Origin: Candidatus Borkfalkia faecipullorum
GTDB taxonomy: Bacteria; Bacillota; Clostridia; Christensenellales; Borkfalkiaceae
Length of the DNA: 64,000 nucleotides
Assembly: GCA_019114245.1 (NCBI GenBank)
Contig: DXFX01000009.1
Coordinates: 1 to 64,000, forward strand
Direction: 5' to 3'
Positions 3,687 through 23,768 of the stretch are shown piece by piece. Below the pieces are notes generated by a model, which saw nothing but the letters and a program-made list of their open reading frames with translations, was not told the DNA's origin and searched no databases. The position numbers and the translations under genes were made by a program. The stretch's first letter is position 1. Each line of letters starts with the position of its first letter.

Positions 3687-5018
3687 ATGAATAAGACAAA
3701 AATGGTCATTTTGGCGCACGATGCAATCATCAAGCATATCGGAGAGCAGTATTTTCTTGTCAGGGCGTCGTTCGATTATTCCAAAAAGCGGCTTTTACAA
3801 CTGACGGAATTGGGGGTTGCCATCGTTCGGTTCATCAAAGAGGCGCGGGCAGTGCAAAAGGTCGCCGAAACTTTTTCCTCTTATGCAAACGAAGAGACGA
3901 TAGAGGCATATCTTTCCTACCTGGATGAAAATAATTATGTGATCAGATGGGGCGGCGACAGCGATTCATATGTCAATCTCAGTTCCTTGCAAAAGGAGAT
4001 CTGGATGGAGGAACACGTTCCGTATGGCGCTACGATCGAACTGACTTCCCGCTGTAATTTCCGTTGCGTGCATTGCTATCTCGATCATTTTCACCAGACG
4101 GAGGATCTGACCTTTGATCAGATAAAATTTATTTTGGATGCACTTGCCAAGGCGGGCATGATGACAATTTTTCTTTCCGGCGGGGAACCGTTGCTGAGGA
4201 AAGATTTCAGGGAGATCTATCTATACGCAAAGAAACTCGGCTTTTTGCTGATGATCTTCACAAACGGATATTTGTTGGACGACGATCTGCTCGATCTGTT
4301 TTTGCAATATCCGCCGCTGGAGATCGATATTTCCCTGTATGGCTCCGACGATGCGGCATATGAGAGGGTAACAGGGGTCAAGGGCGCGTTTACAAGGATA
4401 AGAAACAACATCATCAAATACAAAAAACATGGCGTCTTTGTTTCCGCAAAGACCCCCGTCCTTACCATCATGAAAGACGATCTTGGGCGTATGAGAGATG
4501 TCGCGGCAGAATTGGATATTCCCTGGAGAATTACGTTTGACATAACGCCGACGATCGACAACGTATCCAAAGAAGAATACCGCCTTCCCGCCAAACAAGC
4601 GATGGAGTTATACAGAGAATTCGGAGATACATACTATGCCGATAAGGAAATTTTGTCGGAGCGATTGGGAAAGGGCGGGCAGATCGGCCGCCGCAGATAT
4701 GCTTGCGGCATGGGGAAGAGCAGCTGTTTTATTGATTATCGAGGGTATGTGAGTCCATGTATTGAAACAAGACATCGCGGCGTTTCGATTTTTGAAAATG
4801 ATTTTGATACGGTTTGGAAAAAGATCCGCGATATTTCCTACGAACAGCTTTCGGAGGAAGAGAATTATAAATGCCTTTCGTGTGATATAGCGTGTATCTG
4901 CAAGAGCTGTCCTGCGGTAAGAGAACGTTATTATGGATCGCCTGCCATAATAAAAAAACAGGATTGCGCTTTTGCGGAAGCATTAAAAGAAATTATACTT
5001 CGGGAGGAGAAACGGTAG
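3687..5018 (+). CDS. Radical SAM/SPASM peptide maturase with PqqD-like N-terminal domain
   Basis: TSRCNFRCVHCYLD (CxxxCxxC), LSGGEPLLR, C-terminal Cys-rich region CGMGKSSCFIDYRGYVSPCIE...CLSCDIACICKSCPA; N-terminal ~90 aa PqqD/RRE-like. Confidence 0.88.
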   Translation: MNKTKMVILAHDAIIKHIGEQYFLVRASFDYSKKRLLQLTELGVAIVRFIKEARAVQKVAETFSSYANEETIEAYLSYLDENNYVIRWGGDSDSYVNLSSLQKEIWMEEHVPYGATIELTSRCNFRCVHCYLDHFHQTEDLTFDQIKFILDALAKAGMMTIFLSGGEPLLRKDFREIYLYAKKLGFLLMIFTNGYLLDDDLLDLFLQYPPLEIDISLYGSDDAAYERVTGVKGAFTRIRNNIIKYKKHGVFVSAKTPVLTIMKDDLGRMRDVAAELDIPWRITFDITPTIDNVSKEEYRLPAKQAMELYREFGDTYYADKEILSERLGKGGQIGRRRYACGMGKSSCFIDYRGYVSPCIETRHRGVSIFENDFDTVWKKIRDISYEQLSEEENYKCLSCDIACICKSCPAVRERYYGSPAIIKKQDCAFAEALKEIILREEKR

Positions 5019-5164
5019 TGGCAAATTTAAGTCTTTTTGTGGTGAGACAGGTTTTTGTGGATACGAACAGCCTGGGCGGATTCAAGTATGATTCCTCTTG
5101 TTCTTATTCCAAATCGGGAGACTGCTCAAGCTGCTGCTCTCTTGAACTTGTATTGACTCCTTAA
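5018..5164 (+). CDS. Candidate Cys-rich RiPP precursor peptide (48 aa)
   Basis: GTG start overlaps the maturase TAG stop (TAGTG), preceded by gggaggaga; product MANLSLFVVRQVFVDTNSLGGFKYDSSCSYSKSGDCSSCCSLELVLTP; then hairpin and terminator. Confidence 0.75.
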   Translation: MANLSLFVVRQVFVDTNSLGGFKYDSSCSYSKSGDCSSCCSLELVLTP

Positions 5165-5174
5165 AGGGGCAAAA

Positions 5175-5210
5175 CATAAGCCGATGAAGCAGGCGGTTCA
5201 TCGGCTTATG
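5175..5210. repeat. Perfect 14-bp inverted repeat directly after the precursor gene
   Basis: cataagccgatgaa-gcaggcgg-ttcatcggcttatg. Confidence 0.8.
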
Positions 5211-5237
5211 AATTTTCAGACAATGACTTTGTATAAG

Positions 5238-5274
5238 ACAACGGCAGCAAGTTCCTTACTGCCGTTGTTTTTTT
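5238..5274 (+). terminator. Rho-independent terminator of the RiPP-like operon
   Basis: acaacggcagcaag-ttc-cttactgccgttgt (one mismatch) followed by TTTTTT. Confidence 0.85.
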
Positions 5275-5402
5275 ATGTCTGTTATTCTGAAAGGAATGCG
5301 CGGGGCGTTGCACAAATTTTTGACAAAAGAGGGAAAAAGAAAGCTGCCGTCTTGCGATCTGCAGGATATAGGAAAAAGATATAATATTTATAAAAGGAAT
5401 TC

Positions 5403-5521: not shown

Positions 5522-7729
5522 ATGTACGATATCAAGTGGAAAAATGACTTAAAAATGTATCTTCAAACATTTACGAGTTTTGTTTTTGAAGGGAATATCA
5601 ATGATCTTCAACCCGTGAAAGGGGAGGGGGAAGAGTATCGGTATCTTCCTCTTCACGAAGCGATCGCCGAACTTTACGGGGAGGAATACAGCGTCGTATT
5701 TTATGACCATACCAAACTGAGCGGGCTGGCGATCCCTGAGAAAAACAGCCGCGAAAACGAGAACGATCCGCAGCCCGCGCCTGTGTTGGATGAAAAATGG
5801 TTCAATTCCTTTGTTTTTGCGGAGCGTTCCCTGACGGTTCTGGATTCTTCGACGGGGGAAAGGATCCCGTCGCCCAATATAGCGCTGTTTCTGGAATATT
5901 ATCGGGACGAATACCTGAGAAAGAAAGATGAATCCACCAACAAAGGGTTTCAGGCGGATATTACCAAGGATATGCAGCGGATTTACGACGCCATGGCGGA
6001 TTTTGAGAAAAAGAGCGCTCAGCCGGAGTATAAAGACGCAAAGCCCTATCTCTTTATTTTGCCGGATGTTTCCAGGTATATGACGAGACCGGGCGAACCG
6101 ACGGAAAAGGAAAATGCAATCCTGTTGGTGCTGTTCAAGGCCATCCAACTTGTCGGGACGAGATGCAAACTCATGCTGTTTGTAGACAAGATGAACGACC
6201 TTCCGACCTGGTTTGAGTCGGAAAACAACAATTCGGCGATCAAGAAAATTTTTCTGCCGTCGCCGGACGGAAAATTCAGGGAGACATTTTATCGGCTCGA
6301 GATGAGTTCGGTCATGGAGCCCGTCGACGAAAAGAATCTTGACAAACTGATCAAGAAATTTTCTGCCTATACGGAAAACTTTTCGCTGCGCAGGCTGCAG
6401 CAGCTGAGGACGTTTATCGTCGAGGAGAGCCCCCATCAGGAATCGGGAGCGCCTTCCTACAGAAATCTGCAGAATATCGACAAGACCATCTTCCGTTTTG
6501 AAGTCGGTCAAAGCTATGACCCGTGGCGCGACCCCTCGCTGCGTACGACGATCAGGGAGCTTTCCGCCTCTCTGAACGAGATCGTGAAGGGTCAGCGCGT
6601 ACCCGTTGCGCGCGTTTCGGAAGTGATGAAATCCGCAGCCACGGGGGTCACGTCCAGCAAAAAGAACGATCGGCGTCCGCGCGCGATTTTCTTCTTTGCA
6701 GGCCCGACCGGCGTGGGTAAAACGGAGCTTTCCAAGCAACTCGCCGAAAAGATCTTCCTGAATCAGGACAGTATCATCCGCTTTGACATGAGCGAGTTCC
6801 AGCAGGATCATACAGAATCCAGGCTGTTCGGCGCGCCTCCCGGATACGTCGGTTACGAGGCGGGCGGCGAACTGACCAAGGCGATCAAGCAAAAGCCGTT
6901 CTCGGTGGTGTTGTTTGACGAAATTGAAAAGGCTTCACCGAGGATCTGGGATAAATTCCTGCAAATTTTGGGCGACGGCCGCCTTACGGACGGCAAGGGC
7001 GAGACGGTCTCCTTCACGCAGTCGATCATTATATTCACATCCAATCTGGGCATCACGTCGCTGTATCGCGACGATAAAAATAAGCAAAAGGCTCTCGAAG
7101 AAGTCGACGCCTCGATTTCGGCAACCCTGACGGCGTTGAAAACGTGTTCGGACGAGGACAAGACGGAGCTTGTCAAAAAATTGGTCGAACAGGAGCGCAG
7201 CCGCGCGGCGATCACTGGCCTTACGGTGGATCTGGCGGGGCGGGATCTCTTTACAAAATATTCTGACGAATACGGTATGCTCAACGATACGATGTATGTG
7301 ATGCCGACGGATGCGTTCAATGCGTTTGTTGAGAACTGTGTGCGGGACAGGATCGAAAATTATTTTGAACAGATCGGCAGGAGGGAAGTGCTCGGCCGTA
7401 TTGACAAAAGCAACATTCTGGTCTTTAACTTTATTTCGCCGAATGTGGCGGACGAGATCGCCATGAAAGCGATCAGGGATTATTGCGAGAACCTCAGAAC
7501 GGAAAACGAGAGCAGATTGAATCTTTCCGTGACAGACGCCGCCCTGGAATTCATCAAGGAACACACCAAGACGGCGGAGACGCTGAATTTCGGCGGACGC
7601 GGCGTTGTGACTTGCGTGGAAAAACTGGTCGGCTCTAAGGTCGGTGAGTTTATCTTTGAACACAGTGAGATCGGCCTTTCGGCAACGCTGGACTGTGTGG
7701 ACGGGGCTCTGGAAGTCAGATTAGGGTAG
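5522..7729 (+). CDS. Clp/Hsp100-like AAA+ ATPase (AAA_2), with apparently degenerate first AAA domain
   Basis: FFFAGPTGVGKTELSKQLAEKIF Walker A, FDMSEFQQDHTESRLFGAPPGYVGYEAGGELT, VVLFDEIEKA Walker B, FTSNLG sensor 1. Confidence 0.88.
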   Translation: MYDIKWKNDLKMYLQTFTSFVFEGNINDLQPVKGEGEEYRYLPLHEAIAELYGEEYSVVFYDHTKLSGLAIPEKNSRENENDPQPAPVLDEKWFNSFVFAERSLTVLDSSTGERIPSPNIALFLEYYRDEYLRKKDESTNKGFQADITKDMQRIYDAMADFEKKSAQPEYKDAKPYLFILPDVSRYMTRPGEPTEKENAILLVLFKAIQLVGTRCKLMLFVDKMNDLPTWFESENNNSAIKKIFLPSPDGKFRETFYRLEMSSVMEPVDEKNLDKLIKKFSAYTENFSLRRLQQLRTFIVEESPHQESGAPSYRNLQNIDKTIFRFEVGQSYDPWRDPSLRTTIRELSASLNEIVKGQRVPVARVSEVMKSAATGVTSSKKNDRRPRAIFFFAGPTGVGKTELSKQLAEKIFLNQDSIIRFDMSEFQQDHTESRLFGAPPGYVGYEAGGELTKAIKQKPFSVVLFDEIEKASPRIWDKFLQILGDGRLTDGKGETVSFTQSIIIFTSNLGITSLYRDDKNKQKALEEVDASISATLTALKTCSDEDKTELVKKLVEQERSRAAITGLTVDLAGRDLFTKYSDEYGMLNDTMYVMPTDAFNAFVENCVRDRIENYFEQIGRREVLGRIDKSNILVFNFISPNVADEIAMKAIRDYCENLRTENESRLNLSVTDAALEFIKEHTKTAETLNFGGRGVVTCVEKLVGSKVGEFIFEHSEIGLSATLDCVDGALEVRLG

Positions 7730-7733
7730 TACG

Positions 7734-8288
7734 ATGGAAATAGAGGACGATTTTGAGGTTTTCCGGTTTGCAAGATTTCTGAACGGAGTTCAGGGGAGCG
7801 AAGAGGGAACGGCGGCGTTGTGCGAATACTGGAAAAACATCGGCAAACTGGACAAACTCCTTCTTTTCACGGGCGGATTTTCCGTTTTTCCCCAGTTTAC
7901 GGAAATTCAGTATCTTGTGACGTCGGAAGCCTGCTGCGAACGGTTATACCGTGCGCTGGAAAATTTCATCGGTTCGCAGTGTTGTTCAAAAGAACTCACG
8001 GAGGCGGTCGTAAGTGCGGAGACGATCGCTGCGGCCAACGATCTCGTCAACAAGCTCAGGGCGTTGAAAGACGTTCGCCTCAGAAACAGCTGGGCAGAAT
8101 TTTTCAAGGCGCTGAGCGAACACGCCGCCAAGATCGTCAGCGCGGTCGGCAGGCTCACCGCCCTGGAAGCCGCAGGGCAGCAGGTGCGGTTCAGCGTGAC
8201 CGCGACGGCAGAGCAAATTTTGGCAGGGACGGCAAACTACAATTCGCCTTCGGGCAATTATTTTCTGTTTCGGTATAAGACGCAATGA
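7734..8288 (+). CDS. Hypothetical protein of the AAA+/GTPase operon
   Basis: Tightly packed; stop overlaps next start (ATGA). Confidence 0.6.
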   Translation: MEIEDDFEVFRFARFLNGVQGSEEGTAALCEYWKNIGKLDKLLLFTGGFSVFPQFTEIQYLVTSEACCERLYRALENFIGSQCCSKELTEAVVSAETIAAANDLVNKLRALKDVRLRNSWAEFFKALSEHAAKIVSAVGRLTALEAAGQQVRFSVTATAEQILAGTANYNSPSGNYFLFRYKTQ

Positions 8289-10513
8289 CAATTCAGATTT
8301 TTTTTGACAGTAAAAACTCGATCTACTATGTCAGATATGAGAGAAGCTGCGCGGTTTTACTGCCTGAGTTTAGAGAAATGAATGACCGGCAGCAAGAGGA
8401 TTTTCTGCGCGAAATTTATACGGAAGACGAAGCTGTCGGATATATCAAAAAGCTGGAAAAAAACAGAAAAATTTTTTATGAAAGCGACATCATGAACACG
8501 ATCGGAAAGGCCATTCGGGTCCGTAATGCCGAGAGCGAAAAATCTGCGCGCACCGACGTATCCTGGAAGTATTGCTGGCAAACGGAGCTTGTGCCCGTTT
8601 CACCCTTGCGTGAGAAACAGCTGGAAGAGCAGCTTTCTGTGGAAAAGGGGAGCGCCGGGGCAGAACTGACGGAGATCGGATATGACGGTGTCGCGGACGA
8701 TGCGGCGATCGTGCAGGCGATCGTGGAACACAGGCAAAACAAAAAGAAGAAGTACCTCGTTTTTTTCTGCGATCGGTGTAAACGCTGGCAATATGCGGAG
8801 ATCCGATTCGATCAGGTGCGCTGTCAATGCGGGATAAGTTATGCAACCAAGGCGGAGTTTTCGCATCCCTGTTTTCAGTATGAGGGCGATCGGGCGCGCT
8901 TCCGTGCGTCCGAAAAAGCGTTTGAACAGAACGAGGCGCAGAAAGAGGAAGAAAAAGCCGACGTTATAGAGGCGCGGCCCTACTATTATAAGGGCGAAAC
9001 CGTCCGCAACGGAAAAATTTACGGTCTGACGTTGAGCGATTGCGAAGCCCTTCATGAAAGGCTGTATCTGAACTGTGACGTCGAAAAAGTTTTTTGTTTG
9101 GGGGAGAGCGGGACGATCGCGTTCAATCCCGAATATGAGGCATACGTGAAGGGCCTTGCCGATCGCAAAATCGGGGGAATGCAGCGGATTTACAAGCGGA
9201 AAACGGGCATTCTTGCAGAAATAAATGGGGCTGGGCAGGATCTCAAGGCCATGATGTCGGGCTTTTATCGGTATTTCATGGAGAACGGCCTCACAAAATC
9301 CAAGGCTCTCTGCTGGCGAGAGGCGGGTCAGGTTTATAGATTTCCCTCGTCGGAACGTTTTGCACTCTCCTTTTGCGCATTGCCTGCGGAGAAGCGCAAG
9401 GCGCTTTTGCCTCTCTATAATTCAGATACCTGCACTTATTTTTTTGACGGGTACGACGATCGCAGGATCGAGCTTTCCCGCCTGATCTATGAGAAGTGCG
9501 GCGGCCGTTTTTTGTATATCGACGCGGATGACAAAATTTACGATTTCGGCACGGATTTCATCGAAAAACTGCACGTCGAAGACGGCCTTTCTCTCGTGAA
9601 AAATGAATTTATCCAGGCGATTTACGATGATTTCGAATTCTGGGACCACGTGCGCGGTGCGTACGAAGACGAGGAAGGGTACCTTTCGGGCGAGGATGAA
9701 AACTATTACGATAAGCTGTGCTATTATCAGTTTTCGATCGGCGGAAAGCGCGTCCTGCAATACCGCGGACTCAGCATCCGAAACTCTCGGGACGGGATCC
9801 ACGACGTAAAAAGCATCATACGTGATTGCTATTTGGCGTCGGACGGCCTCGCGCAGGAGAAGTTTTCCGATCTTATCTCCTTGTTTTTCCACACCACGCT
9901 CCCGGAGACGCTCAGAGTGCTGGGCGAGGGGACGGTCAGGACAAGCAAGGGGGAGACGGCGCCGTTTTTGCCCAGGCTAAAGGAATTGCTGAACGCAGAA
10001 GAGACAAAGCCCTCTCTGAGCGCGTATTTGTTCTGTCTGGACACGGTCAGCAAAAGTACGAAGTTCTGGTACGGCGGCCGCTGCGATACGCTTATGGGTC
10101 ATGCAGCCTTTCAGAGCAGCGCGGGAAAAGCGGGGGCGTTCAGAGAGCTTTCCGCCTCGCCCGAGGCCGCCGAGATCTTAAAATATATTTATGCGGAAAG
10201 GTATGAAAGCATCTGCACGGAAAGCGGTCATGCTTTCAGCGCGCTGACGCAGGCTCTGAAAGAATTTCAGAGCCAGTTTGACAATCAGGTTCAGGCAATG
10301 ATCAGAGCGGAGGCGGTCGGCCGTAAGGCTCCTGCCGATGCAGAAGGCGCCAAAGCAGGCGACAGCCGCGGCGTCGGTTCCCCGAAGGGCAGGGGCGAGC
10401 CCGACAGAAGCAGCGAAACGCCGAAGCGCGGCGGACATACCGCATCGCCGGAATCGGAGGGAAAACCTTCCGCGAAAAAAAAATCGGAGGAAATAGCAGA
10501 TGAGTGGGCCTAA
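8285..10513 (+). CDS. Large hypothetical protein with zinc ribbon
   Basis: VFFCDRCKRWQYAEIRFDQVRCQCGISY (CxxC...CxC); low-complexity charged C-terminus. Confidence 0.65.
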   Translation: MTIQIFFDSKNSIYYVRYERSCAVLLPEFREMNDRQQEDFLREIYTEDEAVGYIKKLEKNRKIFYESDIMNTIGKAIRVRNAESEKSARTDVSWKYCWQTELVPVSPLREKQLEEQLSVEKGSAGAELTEIGYDGVADDAAIVQAIVEHRQNKKKKYLVFFCDRCKRWQYAEIRFDQVRCQCGISYATKAEFSHPCFQYEGDRARFRASEKAFEQNEAQKEEEKADVIEARPYYYKGETVRNGKIYGLTLSDCEALHERLYLNCDVEKVFCLGESGTIAFNPEYEAYVKGLADRKIGGMQRIYKRKTGILAEINGAGQDLKAMMSGFYRYFMENGLTKSKALCWREAGQVYRFPSSERFALSFCALPAEKRKALLPLYNSDTCTYFFDGYDDRRIELSRLIYEKCGGRFLYIDADDKIYDFGTDFIEKLHVEDGLSLVKNEFIQAIYDDFEFWDHVRGAYEDEEGYLSGEDENYYDKLCYYQFSIGGKRVLQYRGLSIRNSRDGIHDVKSIIRDCYLASDGLAQEKFSDLISLFFHTTLPETLRVLGEGTVRTSKGETAPFLPRLKELLNAEETKPSLSAYLFCLDTVSKSTKFWYGGRCDTLMGHAAFQSSAGKAGAFRELSASPEAAEILKYIYAERYESICTESGHAFSALTQALKEFQSQFDNQVQAMIRAEAVGRKAPADAEGAKAGDSRGVGSPKGRGEPDRSSETPKRGGHTASPESEGKPSAKKKSEEIADEWA

Positions 10514-12518
10514 ATATTATCATTATTCATCGCCGTATAGCGGCAGTTCTTCAACGTCAACATATGGGAGGAGTACGGAAGTGAGCGGACCTAAATTTTA
10601 CAATTTTTCGGCATCGTCGCCCGAGGAGGCGGCGGGGATCGTCTCCCGTTTTTCATCGTTTGGCGGAATCAGGGCGACCGTATCGGGGAACAGGATCAAC
10701 GTAGAGGTATCAAGTGCGGCGTGGTACGCGGGAAAGGATTACAGCTATATTTCAGAGCAGATCCGTAAGGCGACAGAGCGTTTCCGCGCGGACCAGGAGA
10801 TGGCACGGCTTTTGGCAGAAGGGAAGAAAGAAGAGAAAGCGCGCATCGCCGAATCGAAAAAGAACATCAGAAAACAGGCTGACGAGAAGCGGCGGCAGTA
10901 TCGGGACGCGAGGACGCGTTGCAGCGCATTGTCGCGCGAGACGGATGTGTCCGTGCATACTCCTTTCGGCGATTATGACATGAAGTCCGACGTTCTCCGC
11001 TGCGAAGCGTTGTCGGAAAAACTTCGTGCGGAAGCAGGGCGCATCGACGGAGAGGAGAAAAAATGTCGGGAAAACTGCGACAAATACATGGAGAAAGTGG
11101 AGCAATGCACCACCCTTACGGAGCTGTCGAGGATCAGGGCAAAAGCGCCCGCCATGTCTGTCTCGCATGAGTTTGCGGGCAAGGAAGTGGATGCCCTCGA
11201 AACAGAAGTGCGGGAGAGGAAAGCGCGCCTGCTTGCGTTTACGGAGTCCCTTCGGGAGATCCATCGGATCATCGGGGAAAAGGGACTTTCCGATTTCAGA
11301 TCGCGCATTGAACAGGCCGTCAGAACGCTCGACCCGTTTTCTCCCGATTCGGTCCGCGAGATCATCAAAACCGTCGGGCAAATCGAGCGGGAGCACGCCT
11401 ATATGCGGGAGGAGAGCAAGATCGCGAGATCCGATGCGGAGGCGCTCAGGCTGGCGGAGGCGCAGAATGCCGCGCTGAAAGAGCTGAAAGAAGTTTTACA
11501 GCCGCTTGCGGAGCGGGCCGAAGTCCATGCGGAGACAAAGGTTGATTATGAACGCCTGGGACGGGAAGCGGTCACGGCCTGCGAGGAGATCCTCGCAGAA
11601 ACGGAAAAGCTGAGTTACCGCAGCTCCTATCATGTCTGCAAGATCGAGCAGGCAAGGGAAAAGCTTGCGGCAAAGCGCACCATGCTGCGCTCTCCGCAGG
11701 TGTACGCACAGCTGACGGACCTGCTGACAAAGCTTCGCGCTTTGCTCGAAGACTGCCGCAAGGATGCGGAAAATTATGACGCGTTCTATGCGGAATATAC
11801 GCGCTATCAGCAGCTCTATATGCAGTTCCGCGCGGTCATGAGCGCGGACGAAGCCTCGATGGAAGACAAGGACGGATACCTGGAAGAGCCTGCAGAGATC
11901 GTGTTCGAGTTTTCCGATCCCGAAAAACAGAGGCAATCTCTTGCCGAGCGGAATCAGCAGCTCGAACTTCTCGTTCACCAGGCGATGCAGCATGGGTTCT
12001 GCGCAGGCCTTTCCGCAGTTTTGGGCAAGAGCGCCTGGGGCAAAGAGTTCAAAAGCGAACGGCTCCGCGACGGCAGCGCTCACGTAACGTATGTCAGGAA
12101 AGGCGATTTCGGTGCGATCTATGATATTTCGTACGACGCGGCGGGAAGAGTTTCCATGTGCCCGCGCGGTGTAATTCTCAGCAACGGCCGCAGCCTGATC
12201 TCTCCTGAAGCGCTCAACGGGATCTATGAATCCTGCGATTGGGCAAAAGAGATCTCGGAAGCTTTTTCGCAGATCGAGCTTTGCGACGGGACCTATGAGG
12301 AAATGCCGGAAGAGGTGCGCCGCGCCATGCTGGACAGCAAAAACTACTACGTTTTAAAGACGGAGGAGGAATCCGTCAGGTATCTGCGGATGCACGGATA
12401 CACCGACGAACAGATCGCCGCACTCGGTTATGCGGCCAAAGTTTCTTCCCGCCCCGCGGAGGGCAAGGAGGAAAGGAGGTCCGCCGGAGCGGCGGGAGTC
12501 AGAGAGCTCAGACCGTAA
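10500..12518 (+). CDS. Coiled-coil protein with duplicated N-terminal SGPKYY motif
   Basis: MSGPKYYHYSS...EVSGPKFYNFSA; long Glu/Lys/Arg-rich helical region. Confidence 0.7.
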   Translation: MSGPKYYHYSSPYSGSSSTSTYGRSTEVSGPKFYNFSASSPEEAAGIVSRFSSFGGIRATVSGNRINVEVSSAAWYAGKDYSYISEQIRKATERFRADQEMARLLAEGKKEEKARIAESKKNIRKQADEKRRQYRDARTRCSALSRETDVSVHTPFGDYDMKSDVLRCEALSEKLRAEAGRIDGEEKKCRENCDKYMEKVEQCTTLTELSRIRAKAPAMSVSHEFAGKEVDALETEVRERKARLLAFTESLREIHRIIGEKGLSDFRSRIEQAVRTLDPFSPDSVREIIKTVGQIEREHAYMREESKIARSDAEALRLAEAQNAALKELKEVLQPLAERAEVHAETKVDYERLGREAVTACEEILAETEKLSYRSSYHVCKIEQAREKLAAKRTMLRSPQVYAQLTDLLTKLRALLEDCRKDAENYDAFYAEYTRYQQLYMQFRAVMSADEASMEDKDGYLEEPAEIVFEFSDPEKQRQSLAERNQQLELLVHQAMQHGFCAGLSAVLGKSAWGKEFKSERLRDGSAHVTYVRKGDFGAIYDISYDAAGRVSMCPRGVILSNGRSLISPEALNGIYESCDWAKEISEAFSQIELCDGTYEEMPEEVRRAMLDSKNYYVLKTEEESVRYLRMHGYTDEQIAALGYAAKVSSRPAEGKEERRSAGAAGVRELRP

Positions 12519-12533
12519 GGGAAAACAGGGGGA

Positions 12534-13142
12534 ATGGCAATGCAGATAGGAAAAATTCTGTTTCCCGTGACGACGCTCGGCCCGGGAAAGCGGGTCGGGA
12601 TCTGGGTCCTGGGCTGTCGCAGGAACTGCAAGGGGTGTTCCAATCCGGAGCTTCAGCTGTTTGACGAGACAAAGGATGTCCCCGTCGGCGATGTCATCGG
12701 ATTCGTGCGCACGCTGGATTGCGAAGGCGCCACCATATCGGGCGGCGAGCCTTTCCTGCAGGCAGAGGCTTTGAAGGAACTGGTAGAGGGGCTTCATCGG
12801 GAGAAGATAGAGGATATTCTGGTCTATAGCGGCTTCACAAAAGAGCAGCTGGAACAAATGCACGACCCGAATATCGATTATGTTTTGTCGCATATCACCG
12901 TCCTGATCGACGGCCCTTTTGTGGAGGAGCTGGTGGACGGCGTACCGCTGCGCGGCTCTTCCAACCAAAGGGTGTGGTTGTTTGATGACAGGTACGAGCA
13001 GCAGTATCTTGCGTGTCTGCGCAATGAAAAGAAGGTAGATATTTTTGAGTTCGGGGATGAGACGCATTTTATCGGCATTCCCTTTAAAAATTACAGGCAG
13101 CTCTATGTAAAATATCTCAGGACAAGGGGACAGAATGAGTGA
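12534..13142 (+). CDS. NrdG-like radical SAM protein (4Fe-4S single-cluster type)
   Basis: GIWVLGCRRNCKGCSNPELQ (CxxxCxxC), ISGGEPFLQ; no NrdD in the window. Confidence 0.85.
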   Translation: MAMQIGKILFPVTTLGPGKRVGIWVLGCRRNCKGCSNPELQLFDETKDVPVGDVIGFVRTLDCEGATISGGEPFLQAEALKELVEGLHREKIEDILVYSGFTKEQLEQMHDPNIDYVLSHITVLIDGPFVEELVDGVPLRGSSNQRVWLFDDRYEQQYLACLRNEKKVDIFEFGDETHFIGIPFKNYRQLYVKYLRTRGQNE

Positions 13143-15282
13143 GTTTTATTTTGATTACAAGTGCATTGCAATGGGGGACGTCGATCCGAATCCGATAGCG
13201 GGAGACCGCCCGCGCGAAGCCGATAAGGCGCTGGATTTTTACCTGTATCAGAACTACAATGTGGCCAACGGCTCCATGTGCGTTCAGGTGTTCGTTCCGA
13301 AGGAGATGCAGAGGAAATTCTGTGCCGCGCGGTTGTATTTTGTGCCGCACGGGACCGAGTTTCCCGATCTTTCGGAGTATTCCATCTCCCAGCTCATCCC
13401 GCGCGAACCGACCAGGATGCTCCCGGAGGCGCCGTATTTTATTCACACGGACAACAGCATTTTCATCGAAAGCCAGGGGGGCGAGCTTTCAGGCTGCGGC
13501 GTCATAGCGTTTATCGACGGCGAAAACCCCAACGCCTCGCCCAAGGTGGAAAATGCGTACAAGTTTGTCATCAATTATTCCAAAAAGGAGATCATTTCCT
13601 ATCGGATCGTCGAGCACAAGAGCAGGATCTCAATAGAGATCATCTATCCCCTCATCCGCACCGACATCGTGCTGCACGTGATCCGCAAGGTAGGGGCGAA
13701 GCCCGTTCTGATCCGCGACAGGGACGGCGCGGACAAATATCTGTGCGTCGACAAAAAAATCGTCTCCGTCACCTTGCCCGCAAACGGGCGCATCGAGGAC
13801 GTTATCAAGAAATCTTTCCCCGTGGAAAGTGCGGTCGGGACGGATTTCCGCCTCGTCTTTGATGATATTGCAAACAATCAGCACTACCTGCTCGTGGACG
13901 AGTCAGATTATACGATCGAGGATAAATCGGAGAGAAAACGCGAGAAGAGGGGAGGCCATAAACTCAAAGACGCCGTCCACAGATGCCCTTATTGCGGCAG
14001 ACCTATGGGCAAATTCCCCAAATATGTCCGCGGCAGGTCGGAGATCTACGGCTGCGACGGGACGCTGATCATGAGCGGCCCCGACAGTAAATTCGATCCC
14101 AAGCTGCAGCATCGCAGGACCATCGTGTGCAGTGCGGACCTCAGAACCCTTTCCGATCCCAAGAGTATGCTGAAAGGGTCGGAAAGCGATAAATTCGACA
14201 TTCCTGAGGGGACCAAGAGCTATATCCCCGTGGATAAGCTGATCATCCCGGACGGGTACACGGAGCTTCCCGCAATGAATGTACTGGTCGCGGGCATGAC
14301 GGAATCGGGAAAGACGATCTACCTCTCTTCGCTGATGAACATGATCAACGGCGGCGACACGCTCGGGCTGTTTTCCAAGCCGTTCATCCTCAACCGCATC
14401 CTGAATGTTTTTGACAGGAAGGGAAAGGATTCCAAAAGCGTGGAAGAAGTGAAGTATGACAACGTCGAAACAGAGGACGGCAGGGCGATCCTGGGACACG
14501 AATGCGAACGGCTTCGGAGCGGCCCCGATAAAATTTATAAGAGCCGGTACGTCCTCTCGGTCGGCAATCATGTGGAAAGCAATACGCAGCCGAGGTTTGC
14601 GCTTCCGCTTTCCTGGCACCCGATCGGTTACCGTATGGGGCGGCTGGGATTTCTCTATTTTTACGATGTCCCCGGCGAAGTCCTTACGATGAGATACTCT
14701 TTTAAGGCGCGCTCCGTCGATATGGCGGACTGCTTTATCGCCGTGATCAACGGCGATCCCCTGCACATCACGGCAGGCAGCAAAGTAACTCCCGTGGACG
14801 AGATGAAAGAAGCGCTGGAGCAGCTGGAAAAGATGCGTTCGGGCGGGATCGGGAAAGATACTCCCATTGCGGTTGTCCTGACAAAACACGATTTAAAGCT
14901 CTCGGACTATATCGACAAGAGCGACAGGGAACGGCTGCTCAGCTGTTTTGATGAAAATTGCCACATTGTACGCGAGGATATGCTCGATCTGATGCCCAAA
15001 AACGGAGTCTATGCGGGGAGCGCTCTCGAACGGCACATCGACTGTTCCAGCTACGAGTTGGAGCATTATCTGCGGGCGGCCCACGGCGCGGGGGAGATCC
15101 TGGACGCGCTGAAACAGAAGTTCAGCAACATAAAGTTCTTTACCTGTTCGGCGCTCGGGAGCAACGACCGTCTGGGCGAACCGGTCAGAAGTACGAAGGA
15201 AGTTCTGTTTGGCCCGAGACGTCTGAGGATGGAGCTGCCCATCATCTGGCTGATGTATCAGCGCGGATTGATCAGGAGATAG
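13135..15282 (+). CDS. TRAFAC-like GTPase with zinc-ribbon insert (DO-GTPase-like)
   Basis: VLVAGMTESGKTIYLSSL P-loop; YDVPGE; VVLTKHDL; HRCPYCGRPMG...YGCDG. Confidence 0.7.
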   Translation: MSEFYFDYKCIAMGDVDPNPIAGDRPREADKALDFYLYQNYNVANGSMCVQVFVPKEMQRKFCAARLYFVPHGTEFPDLSEYSISQLIPREPTRMLPEAPYFIHTDNSIFIESQGGELSGCGVIAFIDGENPNASPKVENAYKFVINYSKKEIISYRIVEHKSRISIEIIYPLIRTDIVLHVIRKVGAKPVLIRDRDGADKYLCVDKKIVSVTLPANGRIEDVIKKSFPVESAVGTDFRLVFDDIANNQHYLLVDESDYTIEDKSERKREKRGGHKLKDAVHRCPYCGRPMGKFPKYVRGRSEIYGCDGTLIMSGPDSKFDPKLQHRRTIVCSADLRTLSDPKSMLKGSESDKFDIPEGTKSYIPVDKLIIPDGYTELPAMNVLVAGMTESGKTIYLSSLMNMINGGDTLGLFSKPFILNRILNVFDRKGKDSKSVEEVKYDNVETEDGRAILGHECERLRSGPDKIYKSRYVLSVGNHVESNTQPRFALPLSWHPIGYRMGRLGFLYFYDVPGEVLTMRYSFKARSVDMADCFIAVINGDPLHITAGSKVTPVDEMKEALEQLEKMRSGGIGKDTPIAVVLTKHDLKLSDYIDKSDRERLLSCFDENCHIVREDMLDLMPKNGVYAGSALERHIDCSSYELEHYLRAAHGAGEILDALKQKFSNIKFFTCSALGSNDRLGEPVRSTKEVLFGPRRLRMELPIIWLMYQRGLIRR

Positions 15283-15292
15283 GGAGGGAGAC

Positions 15293-18121
15293 ATGAAGAA
15301 GCTGATCGAAAGCATCTATGCCTATATTTATCAATATAACTATGTAGGGCGCTGCGATCTCGGAATGAAAGTGTATACGCTCACGGAGGGCCTGGACGAC
15401 TCGGAGATCGGATACGTTACTTCCCTGATAGAGCGGATCGACAACGCCAAACTTGAATCGGTGGACAGGGAGGAGGGCGTAAAGAGTATCGGAGAGCCTG
15501 CGGAGCCGGACTACGATCTGGTCTCTTTCGCCTATTATCCCAAGAGAAAATCGGGCGGGATGTGTGTTCTCACCCGCACCGGACTGCGCAAATCGCTGCG
15601 CGACAAGACAGTACGGGGGACGAAAGAGATCATCCATGCCCTGCTGTTTGACAGCGCAGATCCAGATCAATACGCGGTCGATTTCATGGAAAGCAAAGTG
15701 TTTTCTTCCTATACGGACATAGCCCTCGATGAAGAGCACCCCGTGCCTCGCGATGTCTGCGAAAAACAGCCCGATCTGCTCCGACCTGTCGATCCGGGAG
15801 AACTCACTTCTGCACCCTTGAAATTGTCCGAGGTCCAGGGCCCGAATATGTCGGTGGCAAAGGTTTCCGAGCTCGTGAAAGCGATTTTTCTCGCAAAGCG
15901 GGACAAAAAGTGCGTCTATGTCGTGTACAGACCCATCGATCTGAAACTCGCGACAAAATATATCAGGGCGGCGCTGAAGTTTTTGCCCGCACACATCGCA
16001 AACCAGCTCTCCTTTATTACCTGCTGCGGCGAGCTCAGTCTTGAAGGCTTTTCATTTGATATTTGCGGGATCCCCACGAGCAGCAGAGAGAATATCGCCA
16101 GACTCAGGGAGACGGGGTATGTCGTGAGCATCGACGCAACGGGCGTTACAGGGGTGAAAGGAGAAAAAGTCCCGTTTGCGTTTTTTTTGAGCACGTCAGA
16201 CAATAAAACGTTACAGGACTGGCTGGACGCGGCCCCGATTTACGATGCGTGTCTGAACACGTTGGATGACGTCAACGACATCGTCATGCTCTATCAGAAC
16301 AGGGGAAGGGAGACGAGGGGCGATGACGTATCGGAACGCGTTGACCACTGCTTTGAAACCATCGTCAGGATGACCAGGATGGCAAATCTCATCAAGAGCA
16401 TCGACGATATTGAGAGGATAAAATACATCAGGGCTCTTTCCGACGACCTGGAAGGTATTTGTGCGGATATGCGTTCTGTGTCTGCGCAGAGGGTGTACGA
16501 CAAGCTTTTCATGCCTCTTACACGGCTGATAAAAGAATTTCCCCTTTCCGCATTTCCGGAAGTGAACGATTCGCTGAAAAAATCCGTCTACTGCATTCTG
16601 TTCGGCGTAAAGGGTCAGAGCGCGGAGGCCGAGCGCGTACACTTCGACTTTCTTTCCCACAAGAGCAGCGATATTCTGCGGGAATCGGAGGAGTGCGGCC
16701 TCAGCATCATAGAGTATCTCAAGACGGAATGGGAGTTTTGCGGCGCCTTTTTCAAGGACTATTTTTCGGATGCAAAATATTCGGAATATGCCTGCGACAT
16801 AGGCAAGACGGTGCTGAAAAAGCTTCCGTGCGACGTGGGCAACGGCAGTGCGGCGTTCAGCAAAGTGCGGGATTTTTTTGTCGAAAACATTCTCAGCATT
16901 CAGCCGAACGGTCTGAGCGATATTTTAAGGCTCGCATTTGAGGCGTCGGACCGCGCCGCGGTCTTTCAATACTTCCTGGTAAAGCTGCCGGAAATTTCAC
17001 GCGCATCTGCGGAGTTGTTTGAAGACAGGGTGTCATCCTTTGCGGATCATATCGTTGCGGGGGGAATGCTGGAGGAGGCGCTCAGATTTTTCATCGAACA
17101 ATTTGTGTTTGCGGATGAAAGCAATAAAGAGTGCGTCGACAAGATCTTAAAGAAACTGCTGGACGCCTATATCGTCATTCCCGCCCGCCGCACGATGGAG
17201 GAACTCTGCAACGGGTTGCAGAGGGTGCAGGCTTTGATGTCAGAGCATAAGACGGCGGGGCTGGAAACTTTTCTGTATGCCGAGTATGCAGAGCGCGTCA
17301 TCAATCCGTTTTGGGAGGAAGCGATCGCGCAGGTGCGGTTCGAGGTCCTTTCGGAGGAGGAGGTCGATCGCTATCGGGAGCTCTGGCAGGTCTACAGAAA
17401 GGGCGAATTGGTCACCAAGGCAGATCCCGCATTCTGCGAGCGGCTGGAAAAACTGTTTCAGAATTACGAAGTTTACAATCGGCAGGAGCAGAGAGAACAG
17501 GAACTCGTGGATTTCCGCATCGACTTTATCATCCGCGAATTTATCCTGCTCGATGCCGGGACGATTCTGAAGATCCTGAAAGAATTTGTTGGAGAACAGC
17601 AGCTTTCGCAGTACCTGTATCATGAAGGGCTGGGAACCAAACCCGAAAAAGACGAAAGATTTCTGGAAGTAAGTGAAAAGATCGCCCGCGAACTTCTTAC
17701 CGAAAAGGGGGCGGAACTTTCCAAGGAAGAGCAGAAAAACCTGAACGCGAAGAAAATCAGGTTTGCGGAAAAAGTCCGTCGGATCCACAACACGCGGCAC
17801 AGGGCGTCTCTGATCAGAAATATAAGCGACGGCACGCGCGGGCTGATCGGTTCGAGCATTCTTACGGCCGTCATGGTCTTGCTGGCCGCAGTGGCCGGGG
17901 TCCTGCTCTATCACTTCTACGACGGACAATACTTTCGGTCGGTCTACTTTATGTTTGCAGTCCTCACGGGGATCGTGTGCGAAATGATGTATTGGTATAA
18001 CTATTCTGACCGCAGGTTGCACAATGTCGAAGTGAGGGTGACGTGGCAGACAATCATCACCATGATCGTCATGATCGGCCTGTATGTCCTTGCGCAGTTT
18101 ATCCTGTCGTTTTTGTTCTGA
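15293..18121 (+). CDS. GTPase-associated (GAP1-like) protein with C-terminal membrane segments
   Basis: N-terminal YVGRCDLG...LVSFAYYPKRKSGGMCVLTRTGLRKSLRDKTVRGTKEIIHALLF...ANQLSFITCCGELSLEGFSFDICGIP resembles the GAP1-N layout; C-terminus with ~3 TM helices; adjacent to GTPase. Confidence 0.5.
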   Translation: MKKLIESIYAYIYQYNYVGRCDLGMKVYTLTEGLDDSEIGYVTSLIERIDNAKLESVDREEGVKSIGEPAEPDYDLVSFAYYPKRKSGGMCVLTRTGLRKSLRDKTVRGTKEIIHALLFDSADPDQYAVDFMESKVFSSYTDIALDEEHPVPRDVCEKQPDLLRPVDPGELTSAPLKLSEVQGPNMSVAKVSELVKAIFLAKRDKKCVYVVYRPIDLKLATKYIRAALKFLPAHIANQLSFITCCGELSLEGFSFDICGIPTSSRENIARLRETGYVVSIDATGVTGVKGEKVPFAFFLSTSDNKTLQDWLDAAPIYDACLNTLDDVNDIVMLYQNRGRETRGDDVSERVDHCFETIVRMTRMANLIKSIDDIERIKYIRALSDDLEGICADMRSVSAQRVYDKLFMPLTRLIKEFPLSAFPEVNDSLKKSVYCILFGVKGQSAEAERVHFDFLSHKSSDILRESEECGLSIIEYLKTEWEFCGAFFKDYFSDAKYSEYACDIGKTVLKKLPCDVGNGSAAFSKVRDFFVENILSIQPNGLSDILRLAFEASDRAAVFQYFLVKLPEISRASAELFEDRVSSFADHIVAGGMLEEALRFFIEQFVFADESNKECVDKILKKLLDAYIVIPARRTMEELCNGLQRVQALMSEHKTAGLETFLYAEYAERVINPFWEEAIAQVRFEVLSEEEVDRYRELWQVYRKGELVTKADPAFCERLEKLFQNYEVYNRQEQREQELVDFRIDFIIREFILLDAGTILKILKEFVGEQQLSQYLYHEGLGTKPEKDERFLEVSEKIARELLTEKGAELSKEEQKNLNAKKIRFAEKVRRIHNTRHRASLIRNISDGTRGLIGSSILTAVMVLLAAVAGVLLYHFYDGQYFRSVYFMFAVLTGIVCEMMYWYNYSDRRLHNVEVRVTWQTIITMIVMIGLYVLAQFILSFLF

Positions 18122-18133
18122 GGAGAAAGACAT

Positions 18134-21067
18134 ATGGCAGAAAGTCAATTCACAAAGAAAAAAATCAAGCTGTTTCTCGTCGTCCTGGTGCTTGTGGCAA
18201 TTCTCTCCGTCGGGATGGGGGTAGGATTTTATTTCTATTACGGCCATGCCGTCGATGCGTCGGATATCTCTGTCTCTTTGCAGGACCGCATGAAGATAGG
18301 GGCGAGCTTTACGGTGGACGACATTCTCGAAAGCGAGGGCTATCGGTACGGTTGGATGAGATCGGATGTCGAGGTCACCGTTCTGGTGGAAAATGCCGCC
18401 TACGACGAACAGGACGAGACGTCGGGAGAGGAATATATCCCGACGCAGGGCATTCTCGATTATAACGACGGCACGCGTACCTTTACGGTGTGCGGCGTCG
18501 GGGCGGGGATCATCGATTTCAGAGATCCGTTTGACTCTTCCGTCAGCCTGCAGGTCCCGTTCAGAACGCGTTTTGACAACGGGGATACTTCCGAGATCCT
18601 GGAAGAAAACTATCCCGAACTGTTTGAAGACGGGTTCGTAGCCAAAGAAGAATTTGACGAGGTGACGGAACTGAGGCTGACAACTGTCCGTTCCTACGAT
18701 GTAGCCGAACTTTCCGCGTGCCGCAATTTATCCCGATTTGTTCTTTCTTCGGAAGAAGTGATCACGCTGAACGGTCTGCAATCGATTCCGTCCGCGGTCG
18801 ATGTGTATGTTACAGACGGCCTGTATGAAAAATACCTGACCGACGCCGCCTGGAACGATCAGGCAGACAGGGTGTATCCCATCGTGGATCTGAGCGAAGG
18901 GAAGCACACGATCGTCTTTGAATTCAACAGCGGCGCGATCGCCGCCGTCGGCGATGCGCCGCGGACGTATGCGAGCGTGTCGGACGGGGAGAGGATCGAT
19001 CTTGCGCAGTATCCCGTGATGCGTACGGGTTATACCCTTCTGGGTTGGTTTACGAGCGACGACGGCGGACAGACTTTCAGCGATTTCCGCCTGGATTCCG
19101 AGTATGCGATCCGCGACAATCTGAAAGTCTATGCAAAATGGCAGGCAAATACTTACGGGATCACTTATCACGATACAAAGTTCAACACGGATGTCCCTGC
19201 GTCGCAGACTCTGACATACGACGAGAGCGGCAGCCTTTCCGCCGATCTTTTGATGCACGACGGCTATACCTTCCTCGGTTGGGCGCTGACGGAAGGGGCG
19301 GCGGCTGTTTCTTTTGAGATCGGGGAGGAAGTGATCAATCTCGCGTCGGAAAACAATGCCGAAATCAATTTGTATGCGGTCTGGGCTGCAAACGCATACG
19401 ACATCGTTTATGACGGAAATGCTGTCGGCGTGACAAACGTTCCGTCCAGACAGGAGGACATCGCATTCGATACAGAGGTCCTCTTGTCCGCGCAGGAGCC
19501 GTACAGGCAGGGTTATACCTTCATCGGCTGGGCCGTCAGGGAAGATGCTCTCAGTTATGATTATCTGCCCGGCGAGACCGTAAAAAACCTCGTGTCCGAT
19601 TCCGATGGGACGGTGGTTCTCTATGCGGTCTGGAGCGCCAATACATACTCGATCCGCTACGACCCGAACGGCGGAGCAAACGCGCCCTTAGATCAGGAAA
19701 ATCTGATCTACGGGCAGGAGATCACCCTCTCTTCGTCGATCCCCGTGTGGCACGGAAGAAACTTTCTCGGCTGGTCCAGAGATCGGGATGCCGCCACCGC
19801 AAGCTATCTTGCAGGGGCAACCGTCTCCAATCTTGTGGCCGATGCGGGAGGTGCGGTCACGCTGTATGCGGTTTGGGAATATGACTCTTTCCGTATCAAA
19901 TATGACGCCAACGGAGGTGCGGATGCGCCCGATATCAGCTCTTACATTTCGTATAACAGTGCAAGCGCATTGTTGGCGTCCGGTAAACCCAATAGGACAG
20001 GTCATACCTTTATCGGGTGGTCGTATTCGTCCTCCGGCAATGTGGATTATGCGAGCGGACAGTCATTGAGCCAAGGCGAGATCAACGAGATGTACGATCA
20101 GGCAGACTCGGACGATAACATCCTTGTCCTGTACGCCTGCTGGTCTGTAAACTCGTACAAGATAACAGTGAAAAAAGACGGCGGCTCGGTGACAGGAGTG
20201 ACCAGCGGTTCGCGTTATCAGTACGATCAGCGGATCACCATAAAAATCAGCTATGATTATAAGAAAGACAGATATGTTGAGGTCGACGGGAAAAATTTAG
20301 GGGAAAAAGCTTCTCATTCCTTCAATATGCCGGCCCATGATATAACCATCAAAGTATATTCCAAAGAAGGATGCGTTGCGACGGGAACGCTGATCACTAC
20401 GGCGGATCTGAGGCAGGTCCCCATCGAAAGCCTGAAAGTCGGAGATAAGGTCCTTGCGTGGGATTTTGTCACCCAAAGCTTTGTGGAGACGGAAATCACT
20501 TTGTTTGTCTGTCACGGGGATAAAAGTTACGACGTCCTGAATCTGCAATTTGGCAACGGGTCAAAGCTCAGGACAATAGGCAATCATGTTCTGTTCGACG
20601 TGACGCAAAACGAGTATATTACGATCAACACCGACAATTACACGCAGTTCATGGGCCACGACTTTTTGTGCTACGATCTCTCGTCGGGCAAATATGCGGT
20701 ATCGCAGCTGACGCAGGCCGAAGTGACGCAGGAAGTCACAGGCTCGTATACCATCGTTACGGCACAATATTTCAATTACGTATCGGAAAATGTGGTCACG
20801 ACGTCGCCGACTGTTCCCGGATTGTACGAGTTGATCTCTTCGTATGTCATGGACGATCTCACATTCGATCTGGCGGAGTTTGAAAAAGACATTGCAGAAT
20901 ACGGACTATACGGATATGAAGTGTTTGAGGACCGTATGTCCTATGAACAGTTTGTACAGCTGTGCGGGCCGTATTTTAAACTTGCGGTCGAAAAAGGGTT
21001 CACGACCTTGGAGAAAATTCTGGAAGTGCTCGACTACATCGCACAGTGGATGGTATCGGGTGATTAG
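18134..21067 (+). CDS. Membrane-anchored InlB-type B-repeat protein with C-terminal Hint (intein/hedgehog-like) domain
   Basis: N-terminal TM; ~6 GYTFLGW...LYAVW repeats; EGCVATGTLITTADLRQVPIESLKVGDKVLAWD...TIGNHVLFDV Hint signature. Confidence 0.85.
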   Translation: MAESQFTKKKIKLFLVVLVLVAILSVGMGVGFYFYYGHAVDASDISVSLQDRMKIGASFTVDDILESEGYRYGWMRSDVEVTVLVENAAYDEQDETSGEEYIPTQGILDYNDGTRTFTVCGVGAGIIDFRDPFDSSVSLQVPFRTRFDNGDTSEILEENYPELFEDGFVAKEEFDEVTELRLTTVRSYDVAELSACRNLSRFVLSSEEVITLNGLQSIPSAVDVYVTDGLYEKYLTDAAWNDQADRVYPIVDLSEGKHTIVFEFNSGAIAAVGDAPRTYASVSDGERIDLAQYPVMRTGYTLLGWFTSDDGGQTFSDFRLDSEYAIRDNLKVYAKWQANTYGITYHDTKFNTDVPASQTLTYDESGSLSADLLMHDGYTFLGWALTEGAAAVSFEIGEEVINLASENNAEINLYAVWAANAYDIVYDGNAVGVTNVPSRQEDIAFDTEVLLSAQEPYRQGYTFIGWAVREDALSYDYLPGETVKNLVSDSDGTVVLYAVWSANTYSIRYDPNGGANAPLDQENLIYGQEITLSSSIPVWHGRNFLGWSRDRDAATASYLAGATVSNLVADAGGAVTLYAVWEYDSFRIKYDANGGADAPDISSYISYNSASALLASGKPNRTGHTFIGWSYSSSGNVDYASGQSLSQGEINEMYDQADSDDNILVLYACWSVNSYKITVKKDGGSVTGVTSGSRYQYDQRITIKISYDYKKDRYVEVDGKNLGEKASHSFNMPAHDITIKVYSKEGCVATGTLITTADLRQVPIESLKVGDKVLAWDFVTQSFVETEITLFVCHGDKSYDVLNLQFGNGSKLRTIGNHVLFDVTQNEYITINTDNYTQFMGHDFLCYDLSSGKYAVSQLTQAEVTQEVTGSYTIVTAQYFNYVSENVVTTSPTVPGLYELISSYVMDDLTFDLAEFEKDIAEYGLYGYEVFEDRMSYEQFVQLCGPYFKLAVEKGFTTLEKILEVLDYIAQWMVSGD

Positions 21068-21070
21068 GAT

Positions 21071-22075
21071 ATGAGCAGGATAAACATAGCAAATTTAAAA
21101 AATTTTTATTCGGAAAAGCTTGAAGCGCAGCACTTCCAGGTGTATGCCGATTGTGTCGGAAATCTCTTGCAGGGAAAGCTCCGCACTGTCGTTACGCTGG
21201 AAATGACGGAAAAGAACCGACAGGCAGCAGAGAGCGTGGTGGAAGCGATCGTGTACGGCTGTCCGGAGCTGTTTTTCATCGAACAGGAGGTCCGCACTTC
21301 GTGGTCGGGAAATCAGCTGACTCTGGATTTTAAAAACAAGTACCCGAAGGAAAACATCGGTGAGTTGTGGGAGAAACTGAATGCGGAAACAGACCGCATC
21401 TGCGCCATCATCAACAAGTTCCAGACCGTCTATGATAAGCTCAATCGTCTGAACGATTATCTCTGCGCGCGCGTCAAGCCCGTAAGTTCTTTTGAGAGGA
21501 GCGAGCTCGGCGACGCATACGGGGCGCTGATTTTGAAGCAGGCCCGCTGCGAGGGGTTTGCCAAGGCCGCAAAGCTGATCCTGGACCGATGCGGCATTCC
21601 GAGCCTGATCGCAAAGGGCGAGGCGGATTCCGGGTGCAGGCGGGAGCCGCACGCCTGGAACATCGCCGCCTGCGGGGACGCGTTCTATCACTTCGATTTT
21701 ACGTGGAACGCGGGGTATGCCGCGCATGGCATCCCGGGCGCCGATTATATGTTTCTGGACGATCGCGATTGCGGATTGCAGCATTTTCCCGATCACAAAT
21801 ATCCCGCCTGTACGGATGCAGGCAAGACGTTCTGGGCGGTCAACAACGGAATTTTGAAGTATCATTCCGATCTGTCCCGCATCAGGCTGGTGCCGTTCGG
21901 GCGCAATTATATGGCCGCCGCAAAACTGCCGCGCAAGCTCTCGCAATACGAGTATGAAAACGAAGTTTTCGGCTGGATGGTCAACGAACTGTCCGCGCAC
22001 AGTTACGCAAGCACGTTCAGCTATCGCTACAATCAGGTGTTTCAAGTACTTTTCTTTTATTTCATCAACGGCTAA
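21071..22075 (+). CDS. Transglutaminase-like (papain-fold) protein
   Basis: ARCEGFAKAAKLILDRCGIP ... EPHAWNIAACGDAFYHFDFTWN (Cys-His-Asp pattern). Confidence 0.8.
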   Translation: MSRINIANLKNFYSEKLEAQHFQVYADCVGNLLQGKLRTVVTLEMTEKNRQAAESVVEAIVYGCPELFFIEQEVRTSWSGNQLTLDFKNKYPKENIGELWEKLNAETDRICAIINKFQTVYDKLNRLNDYLCARVKPVSSFERSELGDAYGALILKQARCEGFAKAAKLILDRCGIPSLIAKGEADSGCRREPHAWNIAACGDAFYHFDFTWNAGYAAHGIPGADYMFLDDRDCGLQHFPDHKYPACTDAGKTFWAVNNGILKYHSDLSRIRLVPFGRNYMAAAKLPRKLSQYEYENEVFGWMVNELSAHSYASTFSYRYNQVFQVLFFYFING

Positions 22076-22089
22076 GGAGGATGATCGTT

Positions 22090-22389
22090 ATGGACAAGCA
22101 AACGGTATTGGATTTCAGAAATGACTTTATGAGGTATACAGACCTCACTGCCGCGCAGATTTCTGTTCTCGCGCCCGTTCTTTACGGACAGGAGGACAGA
22201 TACTATGAGGCCTGCGTACAGTTTTTGAAGAAAGGGGAAATGCAGAACCTTACTTACGGGGAGTATTCGACCGACCTCATCATGAAAGGGATGCGTTGCT
22301 CTTATCCCGAAGCGCTCGTGATCATGCGCAATATGGAGCAATTCCCGGACTACGCAGACTTTTTCTTCGTGCCGAGAATGGTGGAGTGA
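22090..22389 (+). CDS. Small hypothetical protein
   Basis: AAGGAGG ribosome-binding site 9 nt before ATG 22090; between co-directional genes. Confidence 0.6.
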   Translation: MDKQTVLDFRNDFMRYTDLTAAQISVLAPVLYGQEDRYYEACVQFLKKGEMQNLTYGEYSTDLIMKGMRCSYPEALVIMRNMEQFPDYADFFFVPRMVE

Positions 22390-22395
22390 TGCGCT

Positions 22396-23724: not shown

Positions 23725-23768
23725 CCGCGCCCGAAAGGGCGGAGAGGATACTGTAACGGTGGGGTGTT

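Follow-up and report, generated by a model that had tools for sequence, protein, structure and literature searches.

A rare two-gene locus of Candidatus Borkfalkia faecipullorum encoding a candidate Cys-rich RiPP precursor and a radical SAM/SPASM maturase with a predicted fused RRE

In the window (the whole 64,000-nucleotide stretch of contig DXFX01000009.1 analyzed here), the end of a radical SAM/SPASM enzyme gene is overlapped by a short reading frame. Is this frame a gene, and is its product the substrate of the enzyme? Two- or three-gene radical SAM RiPP loci with Cys-containing precursors are already a known kind (PMC9062424). We consider the peptide and the enzyme to be the precursor and the maturase of one RiPP pathway, with a probability of about 0.88; this figure refers to the pairing and not to the thioether chemistry discussed below. 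The features of the locus are listed in Table 1.

Table 1. Features of the maturase–precursor locus (window coordinates)
Feature	Position	Strand	Details
Radical SAM/SPASM peptide maturase	3687..5018	+	443 aa, ATG start; PF04055 8e-23
RRE (leader-binding winged helix-turn-helix), residues 1-90, predicted	3687..3956	+	Profile-profile comparison, predicted structure
CNFRCVHC [4Fe-4S] radical SAM motif	4053..4076	+	C123, C127, C130; from sequence
SPASM domain	4704..4967	+	C340, C358, C396, C399, C405, C408, C427
Shine-Dalgarno GGGAGGAG	5002..5009	+	8 nt ahead of GTG; from sequence
Precursor peptide, putative	5018..5164	+	48 aa/codons; GTG start; 60%-identical orthologue, codon-position pattern
Presumed leader (~residues 1-24)	5018..5089	+	FVV.....DTNSLxGFxY conserved with L036; role inferred
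Presumed core (~residues 25-48)	5090..5161	+	xSSC[ST]YSKxGDCxSCC....VLTP kept in L036; boundary inferred
14-bp perfect inverted repeat, hairpin	5175..5210	+	-23.9 kcal/mol, z -6.9
Intrinsic-terminator-like hairpin, 13 bp, then T-run	5235..5275	+	z -5.6

The overlapping reading frame is a conserved gene

The first-pass annotation had described an unlisted Cys-rich peptide starting over the maturase stop codon, and translation (VANLSLFVVRQVFVDTNSLGGFKYDSSCSYSKSGDCSSCCSLELVLTP) and coordinates agreed with this description: GTG at 5018-5020 and TAG at 5016-5018 share one G, and the junction reads CGGTAGTGG. As had also been observed, in the mechanical ORF list the peptide appears solely as the C-terminal part of a 90-aa ORF beginning at 4892, and all four of its cysteines lie in the second half, leaving the first half Cys-free. 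At least four Cys in the last 24 residues were found in 4 of the 437 small ORFs of the window, so Cys composition alone is suggestive, not decisive.

Whole-genome searches with the full-length maturase revealed one orthologue, with 45% identity over its length, in MAG HAN096 (genome G371; locus L036/L062), which belongs to another family of the same order as the window genome. The annotation had made its proposal depend on homologous small ORFs accompanying orthologous maturases, and the L036 maturase gene is likewise overlapped by a small ORF of 49 aa (L036:1344-1493, reverse strand; MSAAIKKFVVDEFYMDTNSLTGFQYNSSCTYSKEGDCASCCERAMVLTP) in the same position, whose product is identical to the window peptide at 28 of 47 residues (60%). 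The local alignment of the peptide scored 160, whereas the best of 300 shuffles of that region of L036 reached 45. Identities at codon positions 1/2/3 were 66/77/28% for the peptide and 52/67/37% for the maturase, and dN values were 0.37 and 0.58, respectively, with synonymous sites saturated. These patterns show protein-level constraint on the peptide, at least as strong as that on the maturase. Since the same pair is present in a distant relative, and its peptide is better kept than its maturase, the peptide is a real gene. The genes flanking the pair differ: tRNA-Leu is located about 0.8 kb before the maturase in L062 and other genes follow, while in the window a cpYpsA-family gene precedes the pair and an unrelated AAA/GTPase block follows. 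Thus, the pair alone is conserved, in a type with two members found and hence on the basis of one comparison. That the frame arose by chance where the maturase gene ends, which the short length, the GTG start, and the lack of a model match would allow, has a practically nil probability: another family has the orthologue with the same overlap and 60% identity although synonymous sites are saturated, and the codon-position pattern and the shuffle score agree with this.

The L036 peptide keeps all of Cys28, Cys36, Cys39, and Cys40, and the core residues Y, S, K, G, and D are conserved to the same degree. The GG motif reported in the first pass did not hold up as a protease cleavage motif and was rejected: the orthologue has TG at this site, so GG is not conserved and no GG-type protease is implied. 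A C39 peptidase-ABC gene was also absent among the scanned neighbors, and the locus does not qualify as a double-glycine (C39-protease/ABC) system.

The precursor matched no NCBIfam or Pfam model, and its core motifs were not found in the literature searched. A single-sequence search of the genome contigs gave no match, and an alignment-based search recovered the L036 orthologue, the only one among about 1,300 genomes searched plus a GTDB contig scan. Weak peptide-profile matches in the relatives G002, G005, G007, and G041 (E 0.02-0.07) were located inside other genes with no maturase nearby and were therefore dismissed as chance, as were DNA-pattern matches in the stop-ridden frames of viral contigs L117 and L118. 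Carriage by phages or plasmids was rejected, the window peptide having no match in phage records and the L036 peptide none in plasmid records.

Maturase with a predicted N-terminal RRE

The maturase, for which an in-frame TTG at 3684 is also available as a start, carries both the radical SAM CX3CX2C motif (residues 123-130), nearly invariant in a 42-row maturase alignment, and the SPASM cysteines in the pattern CX17C...CX2CX5CX2C...C, all seven aligned across the family; the match to the SPASM model PF13186 (0.013) was below its cut-off. Among the best 25 NCBIfam models listed, the maturase fell far under every cut-off, the best being NirJ2 (101/500 bits); scores relative to cut-offs were 78.8/340 for PapB, 68/850 for AlbA, 58.7/300 for SkfB, and 52.7/625 for StsB. 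SkfB was the best PDB sequence match.

The AlphaFold2 model built from the 42-row alignment had a mean pLDDT of 86.5. In the Foldseek search against PDB, the first ten matches were chains of the RiPP maturases SuiB, CteB, SkfB, and TigE, with values of 6e-17 for SuiB and 1.7e-14 for TigE at about 15% identity. The alignments spanned about 460-485 columns for SuiB and CteB, and therefore include the RRE, and about 460-480 columns for TigE. The overall rmsd to SuiB and CteB is large, and the domains are placed differently.

The N-terminus had been annotated as PqqD-like, a claim that stood in profile and structure comparisons and failed with the Pfam PqqD model, which gave no direct match. A two-row N-terminal profile aligned with the PqqD-like proteins that sister loci encode as separate genes (hhalign E 5.8e-5, probability 65.6). 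In the AlphaFold2 model the order of elements is E6-9 E13-18 E21-26 E37-39 H41-49 H56-62 H69-81 E85-88, that is, three strands and a short fourth one, then three helices and a last strand, as in RREs, with a block pLDDT of about 66-95. Together with the Foldseek matches to RRE-bearing maturases, these data support a predicted winged helix-turn-helix RRE as the N-terminal domain of the maturase. The window's genome, an incomplete assembly (92.7%), yielded no further PqqD-family protein and thus no obvious stand-alone replacement for the fused RRE.

An extra cysteine, C347 (4725-4727), is located between SPASM C340 and C358. Its column also contains Cys in L063, L003, L037, and L065, and the residue is displaced in L036. 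C347 could be a ligand of the first auxiliary cluster or close its open site.

Related maturases and their small peptides

The maturase tree, which covered 38 sequences, pairs the enzymes of the window and L036 (100/97) inside a Clostridia clade of eight (95/96). Cys-bearing ORFs of 42-49 aa, starting from -16 to +75 nt relative to the maturase end, were found at seven of these eight maturases, including that of the window, although the loci are not all independent, the peptides of L064 and L067 being near-identical. Counting the nearest tree neighbors of the window maturase, six of seven are followed by a small Cys-bearing peptide, compared to 6 of the 339 remaining long ORFs of these loci; in two of those 6 cases the neighbor is one recurring small gene. 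A conserved small precursor thus accompanies the orthologous maturases. The window and L036 peptides have four Cys; other Cys peptides occur in L063, L064, L067, L003, and L037 (e.g., MSYEKPEVTEVSLEYADENEIKFGKDTKSGCSGHCCFAQGSDGGGW). The remaining clade member, L061, has no evident Cys peptide at its maturase; downstream of this maturase is an ORF with a NUDIX domain that is similar to IPP isomerase (L061:881-1420, reverse strand).

In the sister loci the RRE is a separate upstream gene of 89-100 aa and the peptide leaders carry Y-x-x-P, whereas the window/L036 branch has a fused RRE and no YxxP. YxxP is a known motif of discrete lasso RREs, common to several other RRE groups (PMC12710340, PMC13381572). 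The window/L036 type, a single branch, would thus appear to be a naturally occurring case in which the RRE became fused and the leader changed along with it.

More widely, YxxP-leader small ORFs with 2-4 Cys are found by maturases in Desulfobulbaceae, Verrucomicrobiota/Kiritimatiellota, Nitrospirota, and many Clostridia. Cys is present in nearly all peptides by related maturases, while the rest of the core varies. The comparison thus reveals a broad set of loci combining a radical SAM/SPASM maturase with an RRE and a small Cys peptide, a set to which none of the curated models tried gives a name. In Desulfobulbaceae, maturases related to that of the window were found in L065, L071, L073, and L077, including Candidatus Electrothrix (cable bacteria); in L065, L073, and L077 they are followed by small YxxP-leader Cys peptides (e.g., YEKPRVEKVNLFADQVLGEPSCARSCGPSCYAIAA), present as a tandem pair in L077. 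The maturases of Paraclostridium, Thiodictyon, Streptomyces, and an E. coli plasmid (23-27% identity) have different contexts and were not accepted as orthologues. L004, from the same genus (29%), with a small Cys ORF upstream, was set aside because of its long, unsure tree branch.

A Sel1-repeat gene is located upstream, on the same strand, of the operon of RRE, radical SAM/SPASM, and Cys-peptide genes in L067 (1743-2276), L064 (617-1894), and L063 (3019-5910), directly in L067 and L063 and with one small Cys-rich ORF intervening in L064. A Sel1-like ORF also occurs downstream in L061, and Sel1 is absent beside the window pair. The Sel1-repeat protein is a possible conserved partner of the sister RiPP clade; no Sel1-RiPP link was found in the literature searched. 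A second small Cys-rich ORF (L064:1907-2053, L066:5515-5661; MFFRFQK...CPSCKSYNTY...WCGDCSYEW) is zinc-ribbon-like and in L064 sits between the Sel1 and RRE genes.

Comparison with known systems

Ranthipeptide linkages are thioethers from the Cys sulfur to C-beta or C-gamma, and sactipeptide linkages run from the Cys sulfur to C-alpha. The ranthipeptide systems (SCIFF CteA/CteB, Tte1186; freyrasin PapA/PapB) share with the window locus a Cys-rich precursor beside a fused RRE-radical SAM-SPASM maturase and an occurrence in Clostridia; CteB is among the top fold matches, and the PapB model matched. However, the match (78.8 bits) did not pass the curated PapB cut-off of 340, the window precursor has four Cys in 48 residues versus six in about 45, and the conserved spacing is Cys-X6-Asp rather than Cys-X3-Asp/Glu. 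The CX3E of the window peptide (C39-E43) is not kept in L036, and the SCIFF precursor model did not match the window peptide.

The sactipeptide maturases AlbA, SkfB, and StsB have the same combination of RRE, radical SAM, and SPASM/twitch domains acting on Cys donors, and SkfB is the closest PDB sequence, but the window maturase is far under the cut-offs of all three and adjacent transport genes are missing. SuiB of the streptide type and the TigE type provide the closest folds, aligned including the RRE, but at about 15% identity; the window precursor lacks TVGG-type repeats and contains no Trp, so there is no streptide Lys-Trp pair. The uncharacterized family mentioned above (L003, L037/L079, L063, L064, L067, and more distantly Desulfobulbaceae, Verrucomicrobiota, and Nitrospirota) shares a homologous maturase (about 25-33% identity) and the order of maturase then small Cys peptide, but differs in its separate PqqD-like RRE gene, Y-x-x-P leaders, unrelated cores, and, in some loci, the upstream Sel1-repeat gene. 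Since the maturase scores stay far below the curated cut-offs and the precursor has no model match, no characterized family claims the window pair, and the comparisons support its assignment to the RRE-dependent radical SAM-SPASM RiPPs, as a rare member.

Proposed pathway

The orthologous pair and the RRE-radical SAM-SPASM architecture support the candidate orphan RiPP proposed in the first pass. The locus may function as a self-contained two-gene cassette, in which the maturase is translated and the precursor follows from the overlapping GTG, probably by translational coupling. By homology and fold, the N-terminal half of the precursor would be a leader, bound in strand form by the fused RRE, and the C-terminal core would thereby come close to the Fe-S clusters of the radical SAM and SPASM domains. 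In CteB, the leader strand lies between alpha3 and beta3 of the RRE, and an open auxiliary-cluster site is near the peptide (PMC8326336). A 5'-deoxyadenosyl radical would then oxidize an acceptor residue, and a Cys sulfur would join it to form one or more intramolecular thioethers. Enzymes for leader removal and export, if any, would be encoded elsewhere.

Given the four conserved cysteines, ranthipeptide-like thioether(s) on the Cys of SSC[ST]YSKxGDCxSCC seem the likeliest chemistry, at slightly better than even odds; the choice is a guess from the cysteines and the enzyme's relatives, and no characterized family's acceptor motif is conserved. PapB tolerates spacings of n = 0-6 (PMC9413430), and by analogy the conserved Cys28-X6-Asp35 would be at the edge of this range. 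Alternatively, the same pathway could form a crosslink of the C-C or C-O type or alter Tyr, Lys, or Asp (Y30, K32, D35) in another way, with the cysteines serving as disulfides or metal ligands. This chemistry is rather unlikely, with an appreciable share of the probability: the core Y, S, K, G, and D, among them Y30, K32, and D35, are kept as well as Cys, the best fold match, SuiB, is a Lys-Trp C-C crosslinker, and C347, like its counterparts in several relatives, could close the first auxiliary cluster's open site, but this extra Cys is in a different column in L036, four Cys are concentrated in a 24-residue core, and Cys recurs in nearly all related peptides despite their varying cores. A crosslink type or pattern new to description in SSC[ST]YSKxGDCxSCC, such as Cys-Tyr/Lys or nested rings via the vicinal CC, is doubtful; an undescribed crosslink type, if true, would mean a new RiPP class, not a new ranthipeptide.

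Instead of being the substrate, the peptide could be a small Cys-rich protein that is transcribed together with the enzyme and binds metal or has a regulatory role; this is very improbable. Its C-x7-C-x2-CC set could bind a metal and no peptidase or transporter is nearby, but the enzyme carries a leader-binding RRE and requires a peptide substrate, and beside the sister maturases the corresponding position is occupied by markedly dissimilar Cys peptides whose YxxP-containing N-termini resemble leaders. With the peptide as the candidate substrate, the locus reduces the system to its two-gene minimum, one unlisted but conserved precursor gene plus the gene of its enzyme, so that the chemistry can be tested directly in E. 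coli.

End of the unit and genomic surroundings

Two hairpins after the stop codon close the two-gene unit and separate it from the downstream block. No transporter or peptidase/protease family was found among the scanned neighbors of the pair, in agreement with the initial description. The separate same-strand block at 5522-25094 includes an AAA_2 ATPase, a DO-GTPase2-like protein, a Fer4_12/radical SAM activase-like protein (12534-13142), a large Listeria-Bacteroides-repeat protein with a weak Hint match (18134-21067), a transglutaminase-like protein (ORF at 21071, 16 kb off), and a TraG/TrwB-like ATPase. This block looks like a surface or conflict-type system.
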